A program made the translations under genes and the position numbers. Below, piece by piece: positions 5,408 through 42,592 of a DNA stretch of 42,833 nucleotides (positions are counted from its first letter, which is position 1; every line of letters starts with the position of its first letter). Source of the stretch: Candidatus Kaiserbacteria bacterium (GTDB taxonomy: Bacteria; Patescibacteriota; Minisyncoccia; Phycocordibacterales; UBA2100); assembly GCA_016867375.1 (NCBI GenBank), contig VGJQ01000006.1:1-42833 (forward strand), read 5' to 3'. The notes beneath the pieces are model-generated. The model searched no databases. It was given only the letters and a program-made list of their open reading frames with translations, and was not told the origin of the DNA.

Positions 5408-7255
5408 TTAAGGGGTAATAACGACTTCTTGCTTCTGCCAATTGGACGAGACAGAGATCGTATCGGAGAAATTCTGGTACCCCGTCTTGGATACCGTGAG
5501 CGTGTAGTCGCCCGCATTGAGTCCGGTAAAGAATACTTGGCCGGGAGGCACGCAGGAAGATGTGAAGGTAAACGACACGTCGGAGACGGACGGTGTCCAC
5601 GTCGAGCTGGCTGTTTGTAGAAATGCCTTGTATCGGAAATACCGATCGCCATTGTGTGCGATGCTGATGTTTTGATTGGCGACCGTGTAATAGGTATTTT
5701 CAGTATCATCAGGGCCGCGGAAATTCCATGTCGCGTTGTCATTGTTGGTCGCGACCTGGAAACGTACGCTCTCAGCGCCGGTATCCGGCGGCTGTGTCTG
5801 CGGCTGCCAGAGAATCTGATGAAAATTGCTCACCGAACCGGTATCAAACGTCGAAGATACCAGGTATCCATTGGTCGCATATCCCGAGAGCGCATCGCCC
5901 CAGAGTCTGATCTCGCCTGCAGGGTTGGCATGCTCGATATTCGAGGATATGGAAAAATGTGTCGTATCCGTGAATGAGGACTGACCTGGGCCGCCGGACC
6001 AATCGGTCTGTCGGATGAAGCCGCGACCTGTCGTGAGTGTCGTGTCATAGCCACCCGGTCCTTCAAGCCGCACCGAAGCACCCGAAAGCGGCAACTGCGT
6101 TGAGCCGTCTTTGACGGTGATGAGGACGCTGCGCGGATCTTTTGGAGCCACGATCAGCTTGAAATCCTGCGCAGCATTGGGATTGAGTGTAAGCGGCAAC
6201 AGAGGAATGGTTCCCGACAAGTCATATGATCCGTCGGTAAAAGCGATATTATACGTATCCCACTCGAGCGTCGGAATAGTCTTGAGACCCGATCCATCGG
6301 TGACATGAGATGCGCTGTATTTGAGTACATCGGGACTCGTACCGATCAGCTTGGCGCCACTGAGTGAGAAATCGATCGACCCGATGGGTGTACAGGTGTC
6401 GGTCACGCTCGAGACATTGAGTGTGCTGGTCCGATCAATCGCAAAGCTCAGTTGCGTCAGCTGCTGCACTGCGACAGTCGCATGCGGCTTGGTCGGATTG
6501 GGATTCCCGGGCGCACCGGCTTCATGGGTCTGCTCCGATGAGTAGCCGGATTTTGAAACGGAAATCTCGTATGCTCCGACTCCCGGCGGTGCATCGACAA
6601 TCTTGAGGAAGCCGTCGCTGTCTGTCGTATCATTGATCACGATTACAGGGACCGCGAGATTATTCTCCACATGCACGTCTGCTCCGACGACCGGCTGACC
6701 TGCCGCGTCGAATACTCGGACAAACAAGGCGCCATTGGTCGACGCCGACTCAAGCGCGCGCGGCCCGACGTATGTCGTAAAATGCACGGGAGAGAAGTTG
6801 ATGCATGTCGGGCACACCACTTCGATATGGACGAGCCGATAGTCGGCGGGGGAGAGGTCATTGGGGGATCCTCCGATCGTGCCATCAAACGGATCGTCGA
6901 CATTGCGGATGGTGGTCTCGACGTCAAAGGTCGTCCCGTCTCGGACGAGCGTCTGCGTGCGCAGCACTTTGCCGTCGGGAATACCGCCCTGTATACCCAC
7001 ATCATCGTACGGCATATTGCGGATGATCTCGAACTGTTCGTTCGCTAATGCGGAGGCGGTGATTTTCAGGCGCGAGAGCACGACGGCTTTCATGGTGGCC
7101 ACATACGACTGATAGAGGCCGCTCCCGATGAGCATGAACACGGCGACACTGACCAATGCTTCTATGAGCGTGAATCCAGTCCGTCGCCTATTGCGGTGTA
7201 TACGAGAAGCTGCTCCGTGCATAGCTTCTAGTGTACCAATCAAAACGGCAGTCAT
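5408..7255 (-). CDS. PilV-like prepilin with carboxypeptidase-regulatory-like adhesin domains
   Basis: The 615-residue protein has the prepilin motif RRRTG^FTLIEALVSVAVFML near residues 24-44, followed by a helix and NEQFEIIRNMPYDD, typical of PilV-type minor pilins. The extracytoplasmic part has several beta-sandwich units of the carboxypeptidase-regulatory/PEGA kind: GQPVVGADVHVENN with AYEISVSKSGYSSE near 185-235, a second LPLSGASVRLEG unit near 395, and a C-terminal GLNAGDYTLTVSKTGYQNFS unit. This suggests a surface-exposed tip adhesin. The start could be the ATG at 7255 or 7222; neither has a strong ribosome binding site, and both precede the leader. First gene of the pilus operon, divergent from the MscS genes. 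Confidence 0.75.
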   Translation of the reverse strand: MTAVLIGTLEAMHGAASRIHRNRRRTGFTLIEALVSVAVFMLIGSGLYQSYVATMKAVVLSRLKITASALANEQFEIIRNMPYDDVGIQGGIPDGKVLRTQTLVRDGTTFDVETTIRNVDDPFDGTIGGSPNDLSPADYRLVHIEVVCPTCINFSPVHFTTYVGPRALESASTNGALFVRVFDAAGQPVVGADVHVENNLAVPVIVINDTTDSDGFLKIVDAPPGVGAYEISVSKSGYSSEQTHEAGAPGNPNPTKPHATVAVQQLTQLSFAIDRTSTLNVSSVTDTCTPIGSIDFSLSGAKLIGTSPDVLKYSASHVTDGSGLKTIPTLEWDTYNIAFTDGSYDLSGTIPLLPLTLNPNAAQDFKLIVAPKDPRSVLITVKDGSTQLPLSGASVRLEGPGGYDTTLTTGRGFIRQTDWSGGPGQSSFTDTTHFSISSNIEHANPAGEIRLWGDALSGYATNGYLVSSTFDTGSVSNFHQILWQPQTQPPDTGAESVRFQVATNNDNATWNFRGPDDTENTYYTVANQNISIAHNGDRYFRYKAFLQTASSTWTPSVSDVSFTFTSSCVPPGQVFFTGLNAGDYTLTVSKTGYQNFSDTISVSSNWQKQEVVITP

Positions 7256-7342: not shown

Positions 7343-7867
7343 ATGGCACCGACCGATCTCGACATGATCGTATTTGATCTTCTGCGCGATGCGCTGCGGA
7401 TCGCCTTTGTCATCGCAATCGGCAAGCTCCTCATCCATCTGATCACCACCGCGGTCCTCACGTCGATCGCCATCGCCAAAGGCACCGACGGCTACAAGGA
7501 GCGCGCGCAGACGATCCAAAACGTAATTCGCCTCATCGGCAACACGATTACCTATAGCATCGCACTCTTCCTCCTCCTGACCGCACTCGGCATCGACATC
7601 CGACCGCTTCTTGCAGGTGCGGGTGTATTGGGACTCATCGCGGGTCTGGGTGCACAGACGCTCATGAAGGACTTTTTCACTGGTATCGTCATCTCTGCCG
7701 AAGACCAGTACCGCGTCGGCGAGCGTATCAAGATCAATTCCGGTATCGAGGGCACGGTCGTGGAGATCGCACTGCGCCTCACGACGCTCCGTGGGACCGA
7801 TGGCGAGCTACACCACATCCTCAACAGCGCGATCACCACGGTCACCAATTACTCGCGCAAGAGGTAA
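7343..7867 (+). CDS. Small MscS-family mechanosensitive channel
   Basis: The 174-residue protein has two or three membrane helices, the pore-lining TM3 pattern of MscS (GIDIRPLLAGAGVLGLIAGLGAQTLMKDFFTGIVI, about residues 85-120) and the start of the beta domain (DQYRVGERIKI, GTVVEIALRLTTLR). It ends shortly after the beta domain (NSAITTVTNYSRKR) and lacks the large C-terminal cage of full MscS (about 286 residues in E. coli). It would form an osmotic safety valve in the cytoplasmic membrane. A second MscS gene follows, so the two may be paralogous subunits. Confidence 0.88.
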   Translation: MAPTDLDMIVFDLLRDALRIAFVIAIGKLLIHLITTAVLTSIAIAKGTDGYKERAQTIQNVIRLIGNTITYSIALFLLLTALGIDIRPLLAGAGVLGLIAGLGAQTLMKDFFTGIVISAEDQYRVGERIKINSGIEGTVVEIALRLTTLRGTDGELHHILNSAITTVTNYSRKR

Positions 7868-23941: not shown

Positions 23942-24857
23942 ACAAGATTTTTACCCCCGATCGCACAAAATCTGCATAGCTCATCTCATTTTTTCCGGCG
24001 GGCTTCACGATGTCGGGCAAAAATTTTCCATTCGCAAAATGTGCGGTCACTATAGTGACGCGAAATCGGTCACCGTTTCTTTCAGCCTCAAACGACACGC
24101 GCGGCCACTGTGCGTATGCGCGATATTTTCGCCAATTCATCTCATCATCTTGCCCGAGAGTGATATATCCGTCTTCTTTTTTCATCTTGCCTGCACGCGT
24201 GACCTGCGCGGGGTCTTGCGGCATCGGCGCTAGGGCGCCTGCGAGGTACTCGGGCAGCATGCGCACGAGCAGTTCGCCGCCGATCTGTATGAGGCGCGCG
24301 CGCAGATCAATCGTGGTCTCGGATGCACCGATCAGCGTCTTCTCGCTCGCGAGTATGTCGCCCGCATCGAGTGCATACACCATTTTCTGTATCGATACGC
24401 CCGTCTCTGTGTCGCCATTGAGCAGCGCCGACTCGACGGGAGAGGCACCGCGGTATTTGGGAAGGAGCGAATAGTGCACATTGAGTGCACCGCGGGGAAA
24501 TGCATCCAGGAGCGCTTGCGGCAAGATCTTGCCATACGCGACCACGATCGCATACGCACATCCGTATGTGCGAATACTTTCGATGACCGACGCGTCGATC
24601 TGCTCCGGCGTGAGCACGGGGATACCGTGCTCGTCGGCCCACACACGCGTCTCTGATGGTGTGAGTATGAGCCCGCGACCACGCGGCGTATCCGGCGCCG
24701 TGACAACGACCGCCGGGCGAAAGCCATGCGCGTCGAGTATGGCGAGCGTATCGCGCGCCACATACGGCGTACCGAAGAATGCGAACCGCACATCTACCCA
24801 TGCGCAAGATGTGCAAGCCAGGCCTGCACAACCCGCGTGCAGGCCTGGCTTGCACAT
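23940..24857 (-). CDS. fmt: Methionyl-tRNA formyltransferase
   Basis: The core matches Fmt: FAFFGTPYVARDTL near the start, APDTPRGRG, IVVAYGKILP, the catalytic LNVHYSLLPKYRGASPVE block (Asn, His) and the later Asp in VYALDAGDIL, then a C-terminal OB-fold tRNA-binding part. It formylates initiator Met-tRNA. The 5' end is unusual: the frame runs back through a palindromic repeat (24810-24855), giving an N-terminal extension CKPGLHAGCAGLACTSC before VDVRFAFFG. Possible starts are ATG 24887 (listed frame of 315 residues), ATG 24857 (used here) or GTG 24791 without the repeat. def lies upstream in the same direction and overlaps or abuts it, the usual def-fmt pairing. Confidence 0.9.
   Translation of the reverse strand: MCKPGLHAGCAGLACTSCAWVDVRFAFFGTPYVARDTLAILDAHGFRPAVVVTAPDTPRGRGLILTPSETRVWADEHGIPVLTPEQIDASVIESIRTYGCAYAIVVAYGKILPQALLDAFPRGALNVHYSLLPKYRGASPVESALLNGDTETGVSIQKMVYALDAGDILASEKTLIGASETTIDLRARLIQIGGELLVRMLPEYLAGALAPMPQDPAQVTRAGKMKKEDGYITLGQDDEMNWRKYRAYAQWPRVSFEAERNGDRFRVTIVTAHFANGKFLPDIVKPAGKNEMSYADFVRSGVKIL
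24810..24855. repeat. Palindromic repeat family B in the fmt 5' end
   Basis: TGTGCAAGCCAGGCCTGCAC, a short loop, and the complementary GTGCAGGCCTGGCTTGCACA. The outer TGTGCAAGCC/GGCTTGCACA arms match the copies at 35909-35959, and the encoded CKPGLH peptide is the same. Confidence 0.85.
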
Positions 24858-25846: not shown

Positions 25847-25867
25847 TGTCGAGGTCTGACCTCCACA
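25847..25867. repeat. Palindromic repeat family A (GAGGTCnGACCTC)
   Basis: TGTCGAGGTCTGACCTCCACA; the same core occurs at 26691, 26714, 30945, 32516, 38219, 38399 and 39000. Confidence 0.8.
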
Positions 25868-26598: not shown

Positions 26599-26690
26599 CA
26601 GTATTCTCCCTATGTAAGTCTTCTGACGACACTATACATGAAAATGATGTATATAAGTATCGGATCAGGAGTGTTGGCGGAGGTGGTCAG

Positions 26691-26737
26691 TAGAGGTCTG
26701 ACCTCGACAGGTCGGTGGAGGTCAGACCTCCACACAC
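26691..26737. repeat. Two adjacent family A palindromes
   Basis: TAGAGGTCTGACCTCGACA (26691-26709) and GTGGAGGTCAGACCTCCACA (26715-26734) lie head to tail in the region upstream of the metallophosphoesterase gene. Confidence 0.8.
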
Positions 26738-29079: not shown

Positions 29080-29136
29080 TTTCTATCGCAATCTTATCAT
29101 CGTCTCTACAACAATGCAGACCATACTAATTGATCA

Positions 29137-29231
29137 GGGCTCGTCCACACATAACGGATCCGTTATGTGTAGGCATCACGTATGGGCCCGTTTATTTTGT
29201 GTTGAACTTACTTATGAACGGACCCTAAGCT
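29137..29231. repeat. Two-hairpin repeat family C, copy 1
   Basis: A roughly 92-base element starting GGGCTCGTCCACACATAACG. It folds into ACACATAACG-CGTTATGTGT and GGGCCCGTTTAT...ATGAACGGACCC. Copy 2 at 42503-42592 has the same order with compensating changes. Confidence 0.8.
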
Positions 29232-29261
29232 GACAATTTTCCCAATTGGGATTTTTGTCAG
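29230..29261. repeat. Palindromic repeat family D, copy 1
   Basis: CTGACAATTTTCCCAATTGG with its complement, directly after family C copy 1. The match at 35465-35496 is nearly identical. Confidence 0.75.
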
Positions 29262-30944: not shown

Positions 30945-30966
30945 TGTTGAGGTCAGACCTCCACAA
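30945..30966. repeat. Palindromic repeat family A
   Basis: TGTTGAGGTCAGACCTCCAC plus AA; shares the GAGGTC(A/T)GACCTC core. Confidence 0.75.
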
Positions 30967-32515: not shown

Positions 32516-32538
32516 TTGTCGAGGTCTGACCTCGACAA
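32516..32538. repeat. Palindromic repeat family A
   Basis: TTGTCGAGGTC-T-GACCTCGACAA, a perfect palindrome lying between the terminator and the mreB promoter. Confidence 0.85.
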
Positions 32539-35384: not shown

Positions 35385-35459
35385 GCATGCCAGTATACCA
35401 TGGCAATCATATAAGCTTCAGCGCGCTCGCATGTATCGAAGTGATCCGAAGGAGCTATA

Positions 35460-35502
35460 CATGTCTGACAATTTTCCCAATTGGGAAAATTGTCGGACAT
35501 GT
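35460..35502. repeat. Palindromic repeat family D, copy 2
   Basis: ACATGTCTGACAATTTTCCC and its complement; the inner 32 bases match 29230-29261. It lies just upstream of the holB-like gene. Confidence 0.8.
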
Positions 35503-35537: not shown

Positions 35538-36245
35538 ATGGACACTCATCTTACATCCCCACTCACCGGCAATGTGTTTTTGATCCGCGATACAGACGCG
35601 TCGGCAACACTCGCATATCTCACAGGCGAGGGGATCGAAGTGCGTGGCAATCCAGATGTGTACGTGCGGACCTATCCCCAATTCGGCATCGACGATGCAC
35701 ACGAGCTTTCAGTACGCTCGCTGACCCGCGCCACACGCGAAAAGGGGAGGGTATTCGTCATCACCACAGCCATCATGACGATCGAAGCCCAAAATGCGCT
35801 TCTCAAGACGATCGAGGAGCCCACCGCAGGCACGCGATTCTTTTTCATCCTCCCCGCACCCGAGACACTCCTACCGACCGTGCGCAGCCGCGCCCAGATA
35901 GTGGACCGGTTGTGCAAGCCTGGCTTGCACAATGGTTGTGCAAGCCAGGCTTGCACAACAGCCGCAGCCTTCCTCGCCGCCACCCCCGCAGAGCGTCTCG
36001 ACCTCATCAAGCCACTCCTCGAAAAAGGCGACGACCCCTCGACAGGGCTCGGGGCAGGCAAGCGCGATCTCGGCGCCATTATCACATTTCTCTCTTTGAT
36101 AGAGCAGGAGCTTGCTTCCAAACCACTCGAAACCGCACAAGAGGGAATCAAAGCCATCTACCAGGCACGTAAGTACATCGGCGATAAAGGCGCGCTTCTG
36201 AAGCCCCTCCTCGAATCCGTCGCGCTTCTGGTACCCCGGATATGA
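35538..36245 (+). CDS. holB: DNA polymerase III delta'/gamma-type clamp-loader subunit with in-frame palindromic insert
   Basis: From the ATG at 35538 the 235-residue protein shows the clamp-loader signature TIEAQNALLKTIEEPTAGTRFFFI (81-104) and the sensor segment LLPTVRSRAQIV (111-122; usual SRCQ). It lacks a P-loop, which fits a delta'-type subunit that does not hydrolyse ATP, and is shorter than typical HolB. Residues 125-141 (CKPGLHNGCASQACT) are encoded entirely by a 51-base palindromic repeat, a multiple of three that keeps the frame. The helical C-terminus (KRDLGAIITFLSLIEQEL, KAIYQARKYIGDKG) follows. The insertion lies at the domain border, where it would be tolerated. Confidence 0.8.
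   Translation: MDTHLTSPLTGNVFLIRDTDASATLAYLTGEGIEVRGNPDVYVRTYPQFGIDDAHELSVRSLTRATREKGRVFVITTAIMTIEAQNALLKTIEEPTAGTRFFFILPAPETLLPTVRSRAQIVDRLCKPGLHNGCASQACTTAAAFLAATPAERLDLIKPLLEKGDDPSTGLGAGKRDLGAIITFLSLIEQELASKPLETAQEGIKAIYQARKYIGDKGALLKPLLESVALLVPRI
35909..35959. repeat. Palindromic repeat family B, in frame in the holB-like gene
   Basis: Two adjacent palindromes, TTGTGCAAGCC-T-GGCTTGCACAA and TTGTGCAAGCC-A-GGCTTGCACAA, total 51 bases. The whole unit can also fold as one large hairpin. Same arms as at 24810-24855. Confidence 0.9.
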
Positions 36246-38218: not shown

Positions 38219-38243
38219 TTTGTGGAGGTCAGACCTCCACAAA
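38219..38243. repeat. Palindromic repeat family A, right after rseP
   Basis: TTTGTGGAGGTC-A-GACCTCCACAAA; it flanks the downstream (3') end of the RAYT gene. Confidence 0.9.
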
Positions 38244-38254
38244 TGGCTTTGTTG

Positions 38255-38980
38255 TCATAAGAATGCACCACGAAAGGCATTTTTGTCATCCGTGCCGAGA
38301 TGCGCACGCCCTTCTATGACATCCTTCGAGAAATCCTTGAACTCCTTAAGGGTCCACAGTGATGAAAACAAATCACTCGACACAATCTCGCGCCGCGGCA
38401 TGTGGAGGTCAGACCTCCACACATGGTCATAGAGACTGCCGTAAGGAAAATTGAGACACCATTCGTATGCTTTGTCGAAGTTTTTCTCTGCCATGGCATA
38501 CCCGCCCGGAAATTGTTCAAACGCATTCTTAATCTGGATATACGCAAACACGTATCGCAAATACGCATCACTATCGATCGTCTTCGATTTATATGGGCCC
38601 TGAAATGGTGTGCCATATTCAGCATACTTTTCATTGAGATGACCGGAAAGTCCATTGCCGATTTTCTGCATAAAGCGGCTCACCCCGCCTTCAATTGTCT
38701 CTTCAAGGAGGAAGTGCAGATGATTCGCATGCAGGCAAAAAGCATGTATCCGTGTCAACGGATCTTTTTCTGCCCATGAACTGGCTCGCTCAAATGTACG
38801 AAGTTTTTCTTCCGCGATCAGGTCGCGAAGCCAGAGTGGTCGCAACGACACATCGTTAAAATGTGCAAGCATCAACAACATCCGATCGTAATCTGATTTT
38901 TCTTTCAAGTAAGGCAGTCCGCGGGCCCCACGCTTGACGACATGGATAATCGAACCGACCCCGTAAGGTTCTCGCCGCAT
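38255..38980 (-). CDS. REP-associated tyrosine transposase (RAYT, Y1_Tnp HUH)
   Basis: The ATG at 38980 (MRREPYGVGSIIHVVKRGARG) is the expected start; a longer frame begins inside the flanking palindrome. The roughly 241-residue protein matches RAYT/TnpA_REP: an N-terminal RGARGLPYLKEKSDYDRML segment, the HUH site HAFCLHANHLHFLLEE (about 90-105), FMQKIGNGLSGHLNEKYAEYGTPFQGPYKSK and a C-terminal helix. The segment that usually reads YxxYFN is GLSGHLN, so the nucleophilic Tyr may be missing; a nearby Tyr in EKYAEYG could replace it. One palindrome lies inside the gene, encoding HVWRSDLHM. It is flanked by family A palindromes at both ends and is probably their mobilising enzyme, now or in the past. 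Confidence 0.8.
   Translation of the reverse strand: MRREPYGVGSIIHVVKRGARGLPYLKEKSDYDRMLLMLAHFNDVSLRPLWLRDLIAEEKLRTFERASSWAEKDPLTRIHAFCLHANHLHFLLEETIEGGVSRFMQKIGNGLSGHLNEKYAEYGTPFQGPYKSKTIDSDAYLRYVFAYIQIKNAFEQFPGGYAMAEKNFDKAYEWCLNFPYGSLYDHVWRSDLHMPRREIVSSDLFSSLWTLKEFKDFSKDVIEGRAHLGTDDKNAFRGAFL
38399..38424. repeat. Palindromic repeat family A inside the RAYT gene
   Basis: CATGTGGAGGTC-A-GACCTCCACACATG; in the minus reading frame it encodes H-V-W-R-S-D-L-H-M without breaking the frame. Confidence 0.85.
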
Positions 38981-38999
38981 GCGACCATTATACATATAT

Positions 39000-39038
39000 A
39001 AAACCATCTGTGGAGGTCTGACCTCCACAGATGGTTTT
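39000..39038. repeat. Palindromic repeat family A with extended arms, upstream of the RAYT
   Basis: A 39-base perfect palindrome: AAAACCATCTGTGGAGGTC, central T, and the complement. It is the longest copy in the window. Confidence 0.9.
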
Positions 39039-39100
39039 ATATAGTATCTTACTCATTGTCAAGTATAGTCCCTGCAAATCTAGGTTAGAATAAGGCCATC

Positions 39101-42491: not shown

Positions 42492-42502
42492 AAAGTGGAT
42501 AA

Positions 42503-42592
42503 GGGCTCGTCCACACATAACATACCCGTTATGTGTGGACTACATGCATGGGCCCGTTCATTTGTGAGCCTTATGTATGAACGGGCCCTAAC
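42503..42592. repeat. Two-hairpin repeat family C, copy 2
   Basis: GGGCTCGTCCACACATAACA... with hairpins ACACATAAC...GTTATGTGTGG and GGGCCCGTTCAT...ATGAACGGGCCC; matches 29137-29228 along its length. It separates the mre genes from the next promoter. Confidence 0.85.

Follow-up and report, generated by a model that had tools for sequence, protein, structure and literature searches.

A REP-like doublet with a candidate cognate RAYT lies in frame in a holB-like clamp-loader gene of a Candidatus Kaiserbacteria genome

INTRODUCTION

REP sequences take their name from being extragenic, and the REP-associated tyrosine transposases (RAYTs) are often called domesticated. The REP, BIME and REPIN elements that go with RAYTs (TnpA-REP) are short dispersed palindromes that occur singly or as inverted doublets (PMC2817692, PMC3116915, PMC8266576), and TnpA-REP enzymes other than the one described here cut and join REP hairpins in vitro (PMC8266576). 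In-frame intragenic REPs are already known (Opitutus, Rickettsia). A 2013 study described them, often in dimeric form, in genes for replication, repair and tRNA functions that include uvrA, DNA ligase and tRNA synthetases, proposed loops and linkers as the sites at which REPs are tolerated, and reported that two Xanthomonas species had a hit at nearly the same position of recB (PMC3733652). The Rickettsia palindromic element (RPE) is described there as a palindromic repeat inserted without loss of frame into genes whose products are likely functional (PMC3733652).

Here we describe a palindromic doublet that lies in frame in a holB-like clamp-loader gene of a CPR bacterium. As in the REP/RAYT systems, its palindrome flanks a Y1/HUH gene on both sides, and RAYT and palindrome have diversified together. 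Unlike in those systems, there is no conserved GTAG outside the palindrome, the units are 21 nt long and form near-perfect palindromes around one central base, copy number is low (~10 to 20 loci), a large share of the copies is in genes, and the host belongs to the CPR. The copies resemble the intragenic GTAG and CGTC REPs (PMC3733652) in lying in frame, in often being dimeric and in occurring in replication, repair and tRNA genes, but they have neither head, a cognate RAYT can be named for the family, and, across many species of a single genus, the same loops hold palindromes that are unrelated to one another. In-frame insertion in HolB, MutY, Dus, LigA and other proteins, whose function we assume, also fits the description of RPEs, from which a RAYT for the family and the many intergenic copies set our element apart. 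The Rickettsia precedent that the earlier note had invoked is a good analogy for how such a repeat works, whereas the closer identity appears to be REP/REPIN, with a cognate RAYT in the genome. Perfect inverted repeats in conserved protein genes have also been found in nematomorph mitochondria, where they reach up to 284 bp (PMC6649704); ours belong to a dispersed, RAYT-linked family.

RESULTS

The window, a stretch of 42,833 nucleotides, is contig C6 of a draft genome of 1.008 Mb (50 contigs, 96% complete). The double palindrome of 51 bases that the earlier note had reported in it (Table 1) is real and not a product of chance. Its two arms (35909-35932 and 35936-35959) are 100% complementary, either arm alone is also palindromic, and the whole is an inverted pair of the 21-nt palindrome TGTGCAAGCCnGGCTTGCACA, which had no match in 100 dinucleotide shuffles of the window. 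As single-stranded DNA, the element folds into one 24-bp hairpin (-32.5 kcal/mol, z = -10); the doublets in HolB, MutY and Dus each fold as a single long hairpin, which is a feature of REPINs. The repeat recurs across the genome as had been proposed, with 17 forward sites for TGTGCAAGCCnGGCTTGCACA compared with none for a reversed control pattern (up to 2 mismatches allowed); such genome counts combine pattern searches with retrieved stretches. Conservation at the 17 oriented sites is limited to the 21 nt. No GTAG or CGTC head is conserved beside the 21 nt, only a weak T at position -1 (17 and 27 oriented sites in two families), and we therefore file the element as a RAYT-linked variant and not as a GTAG or CGTC REP. 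An Rfam search returned no match for the 51-nt element. All six frames of the TGTGCAAGCCnGGCTTGCACA palindrome are free of stop codons; coding optimization of the palindromes was considered and rejected, as the RAYT palindromes of this genome are no more open than shuffled arms (P 0.29).

Table 1. Coordinates of the palindromes and genes described in the window
Feature	Position	Strand	Basis
REP doublet (REPIN-like), two 24-nt complementary arms and 3-nt spacer	35909..35959		Palindrome search, shuffles, folding
First 21-nt REP unit, TGTGCAAGCCTGGCTTGCACA	35911..35931	+	Genome pattern search; conserved unit ends exactly at TGT..ACA
Second 21-nt REP unit, inverted, TGTGCAAGCCAGGCTTGCACA	35937..35957	+	Genome pattern search, site-conservation analysis
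holB-like (delta prime) clamp-loader gene with the element in frame	35538..36245	+	ORF, Pfam, homologue alignment, AlphaFold2 model
Second REP doublet, same TGTGCAAGCCnGGCTTGCACA family, def-fmt junction, probably 5' of the true fmt start	24801..24856		Palindrome and pattern searches
Y1/RAYT-like transposase gene, flanked by GAGGTC family (TGTGGAGGTCnGACCTCCACA), one internal in-frame copy	38255..39028	-	ORF, Pfam, PF01797
GAGGTC-family REP, 3' side of RAYT	38221..38241		Pattern search
GAGGTC-family REP within RAYT coding sequence (HVWRSDLHM)	38401..38421		Pattern search
GAGGTC-family REP, RAYT 5' end, centre of 49-nt palindrome 38995-39043	39009..39029		Pattern and palindrome searches
GAGGTC-family REP, intergenic	25847..25867		Pattern search, gene context
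GAGGTC-family REP pair, intergenic	26689..26734		Pattern search, gene context
GAGGTC-family REP, intergenic	30945..30965		Pattern search, gene context
GAGGTC-family REP, intergenic	32517..32537		Pattern search, gene context

A profile search with PF01797 found 12 Y1 transposase genes in the genome, and 11 of them have gene-specific palindromes at or near both ends; at the twelfth (L028), only the downstream palindrome passed the threshold. The gene on contig C27 (6771-7475; L024:2771-3475) is flanked by TGTGCAAGCCnGGCTTGCACA-type doublets at 6697-6750 and 7502-7554. Its 234-residue product has an NHFH motif and a conserved Tyr147, NHxH and Tyr are invariant across the aligned RAYT proteins, and Pfam Y1_Tnp scores above its cut-off. 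The modelled fold is closest to REP-bound TnpA-REP (4er8_A; Z 14.6, rmsd 3.0, 157 of 165 residues aligned) and includes the part beyond the IS200 core; the next match, IS608 TnpA, reaches Z 8.5 over 99 residues. PDB sequence searches with the RAYT returned no relative, and it was the fold comparison that gave one. The only family match of the protein is NCBIfam NF047646 (REP-associated tyrosine transposase), at 21.5 bits against a cut-off of 80, which points to a divergent relative of that RAYT family. Because TGTGCAAGCCnGGCTTGCACA flanks a Y1/HUH gene whose predicted fold is TnpA-REP-like, we class the 51-nt element, from sequence and model, as a REP doublet (REPIN-like) with its putative RAYT in the same cell, by which it would be cleaved.

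RAYT relatives occur in 35 of 40 genomes of the genus, with up to 13 matches per genome of ~1 Mb. The TGTGCAAGCCnGGCTTGCACA palindrome itself is present in two of the 40, this one and G022, where it again adjoins a RAYT; the family pattern, sought in 148 genomes of the order, was found in this genome only. The RAYTs closest to that of C27, from G007, G001, G022 and G033, are 49 to 52% identical to it, and the palindromes around them have TGTGCAAG in common and differ in the core. Transposase and palindrome have thus diversified together.

Clamp loaders are essential. The holB-like protein matches Pfam DNA_pol3_delta2 (8.6e-15, 55.5 bits against a cut-off of 27), and its best NCBIfam match is TIGR00678 holB, under the cut-off of that model. 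The open frame continues through the 51-nt element and, in an alignment with 29 homologues of the same genus, the conserved blocks on both sides of the insert are intact, which bears out the earlier claim of an in-frame insert. The claim that it adds 17 residues did not hold. The segment from SRxQ to FL has 24 residues here, 17 of them palindrome-encoded, whereas in the homologues it has 15 to 32 (median 18, mostly 15 to 20, one outlier of 32), and the net gain is therefore ~6 residues, or 4 relative to the nearest homologue. The earlier note had taken an aligned segment of equal length in homologues as evidence against an insertion; this objection holds in part, as a segment is present there but shorter, and the linker is intrinsically variable. 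A net gain smaller than the 17-residue element is not explained by simple insertion, and native linker may have been lost or replaced when the insert arrived. As no same-species empty site is known, we infer the HolB insertion from homologues at 44 to 62% identity. In the AlphaFold2 model, mean pLDDT is 45 for residues 131-140, 73 for 121-130 and 93 to 96 in the adjoining blocks. The insert is thus predicted to be disordered and to connect the AAA+-like part with the C-terminal helices, at the domain border where the earlier note had placed it.

Outside its RAYT locus, the TGTGCAAGCCnGGCTTGCACA family occupies nine loci. At four it is in frame, in holB, mutY (C15:17032-17077), dus (C29:2287-2335) and, as judged from the open frame, a candidate copy in a cytochrome oxidase subunit I gene (cox1; C9:34156); the other five comprise one doubtful ligA match, the def-fmt junction and three intergenic sites. 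A second RAYT-linked family (GAGGTC; TGTnGAGGTCnGACCTCnACA) has 18 loci by pattern search outside its two RAYT loci, and the six in-frame ones lie in rsmA, uvrA, miaA, a valS-like gene and a two-domain glycosyltransferase gene and, as a second insert, in dus. Alignment revealed an extra doublet in ligA. In-gene copies thus keep the frame in mutY, dus, ligA and others, although copies that break the frame may have been missed, since the gene around them would then count as intergenic sequence. Gene context came from a codon-score gene caller and was also read by hand, because the caller had missed MutY and the C11 RAYT. Compared with homologues from the genus, the net gains are 13 and 16 residues in Dus, 19 in MutY, 5 in LigA and 6 in HolB. 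RsmA and MiaA each have one Pfam domain that spans the insert, and UvrA, the valS-like protein and the glycosyltransferase have theirs between domains. The doubtful ligA match (C12:5215; L022:2016-2036; SVHAWLAQ, one mismatch) aligns to SVHxWF of the homologues without a change in length and was not counted as an insertion; this REP-like match on native SVHxWF codons may reflect chance, conversion or replacement.

The copy beside fmt belongs to the same palindrome family, as the earlier note had observed, but the CKPGLH peptide read from it there is probably not translated. The doublet sits between the def stop codon and the canonical fmt start (GTG 24791, ..RFAFFGTP), and the CKPGLH frame requires an ATG upstream of that GTG, at 24857 or 24887; the copy is probably extragenic. 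In the C11 RAYT, an in-frame REP (HLSRSDLDS) lies at the place equivalent to HVWRSDLHM of the window RAYT, and both may therefore be ancient in the RAYT genes or serve a function there.

Palindromes also recur in the genes of relatives. By a single common palindrome criterion, we counted 12, 19 and 27 palindromes in 30 HolB, 30 Dus and 30 MutY genes, compared with 0.55, 1.1 and 0.6 after codon shuffling, and 30 LigA genes had 14 compared with 1.9; GC-rich codon runs in conserved segments give part of this excess. In 13 of 30 genomes a palindrome sits in the MutY loop ahead of the D..LLP motif; for the second Dus loop we counted seven palindromes in six genomes, and for the HolB linker one each in three genomes (this one, G035 and G026). 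The arms found in the same loops of relatives are mostly unrelated to one another. Among the 38 in-gene palindromes listed, one of which is counted twice (as unit and as doublet), 21 have an 11-mer in common with RAYT-bordering palindromes, compared with a mean of 0.66 and a maximum of 3 in the shuffled control. The doublet in the HolB linker of G026 has the same 13-nt core as the palindrome that flanks a RAYT of G026, and the MutY loop of G015 has the same palindrome as one of the RAYTs of G015. The remaining 17 have no match to RAYT palindromes in these data, which argues for a second source of palindromes.

Two palindromes of the sister species G035 may be of another kind. Its HolB (L039) contains a perfect palindrome of 34 nt: one arm codes for the conserved AFLAA and the other is the inverted copy of that arm, and this looks like fold-back copying and not like REP insertion. 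At the Dus loop that is occupied here, G035 (L069) has a perfect double palindrome of different sequence (VEPGSPNMGEPGST), which a search for REP copies showed to be single-copy in its genome.

DISCUSSION

It is very likely, in our assessment, that the insert is a REPIN-type element of the C27 RAYT that lodged in a tolerant HolB linker and is carried as a passenger loop. The C27 RAYT would have spread the TGTGCAAGCCnGGCTTGCACA family as single-stranded hairpins, cutting and joining them such that copies landed at many places, and one copy would have entered the holB-like gene at the linker that joins the AAA+-like part to the C-terminal helices, where its peptide would be translated. In-gene copies would persist only in loops or linkers, and only if they preserve the frame. 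The HolB copy may have survived selection because it keeps the frame, contains no stop codon and sits in a linker that tolerates changes in sequence and length; since the RAYT palindromes are not more open than shuffled arms, selection after insertion suffices for the pattern. The loss of native residues in HolB and LigA could reflect later trimming or a deletion coupled to the insertion. We see no evidence for a beneficial role of the HolB insert, which is presumably neutral.

A selfish coding repeat of the Rickettsia kind, specialized for genes and lacking a transposase of its own, is very improbable here. The in-frame behavior in housekeeping genes does match the R. conorii repeats (PMC3733652), but a RAYT flanked by the same palindrome is present in the genome, about half of the loci are intergenic, and open frames are not enriched. 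Domestication of a REP, with the insert serving for example as a regulatory mRNA hairpin or a functional clamp-loader linker, would accord with the strong hairpin and with the several replication and repair genes that contain such inserts (altered repair activity is speculated on in PMC3733652); we hold it to be very improbable, as the element is conserved in the HolB of no relative, the inserts lie in unrelated proteins, and the HolB segment is predicted to be disordered.

The palindromes might also have arisen locally, by fold-back (hairpin-templated) copying during replication and not by mobile insertion. This would fit the single-copy Dus palindrome and the inverted AFLAA arm of G035, but the 21-mer of the window recurs at many unrelated loci and adjoins a RAYT, fold-back cannot yield identical arms at sites unrelated to one another, and for our element such an origin is extremely improbable. 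Least credible of all is an assembly artefact or a decayed pseudogene: although the draft has 50 contigs and repeats can mis-assemble, the frame and the conserved blocks on both sides are intact, the same type of event is seen in several genes and genomes, and, besides the holB-like gene, only a DnaX-type match (C29) was found in the genome.

PMC3733652 supports the REP reading of the insert, and most categorical novelty is thereby removed; new here are the CPR lineage, the lack of a GTAG or CGTC head, the density (12 RAYT-like genes in 1 Mb) and the recurrence of unrelated families in the same loops. A literature search with partial coverage returned no RAYT/REP report for CPR bacteria. With 12 RAYT-like genes in a small CPR genome, and with their palindromes in frame in clamp-loader, ligase, glycosylase, excinuclease and tRNA-modification proteins, housekeeping proteins would seem to be continually remodelled by this process. 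Recurrent hits in the same loops across species reveal tolerated sites, as a natural insertion scan would, and could be used to test the timing and mechanism of REP movement. It is conceivable, though rather unlikely, that the RAYT/REP systems are a continuing generator of protein loops in this CPR genus and that a preference of target or process, beyond in-frame survival, makes true hot spots of these loops; if so, many RAYTs would repeatedly place unrelated palindromes in the loops of replication, repair and tRNA enzymes.

OTHER REPEATS AND RNAS

A near-perfect palindrome of 44 nt (ACATGTCTGACAATTTTCCCAATTGGG..) lies at 35459-35502, just 5' of the holB-like gene, and a related copy lies at 29230-29259; the two are possibly a further palindrome family. 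A 66-nt repeat (GATAAGGGCTCGTCCACACATAAC..GGGCCCGTT) occurs at 29132-29197 and 42498-42563, its window copies being 83% identical, and a sequence that resembles it (GGGCCCGTTCAT) is found in L018 near position 1830; this repeat belongs to neither of the REP families above. Rfam searches of the window matched only two RNAs, a group I intron (RF00028, 22774-23086, minus strand, 70 bits) and a DUF3800-IX RNA (RF02968, 16583-16646, plus strand), the latter at 50.5 bits, which exceeds the gathering score.
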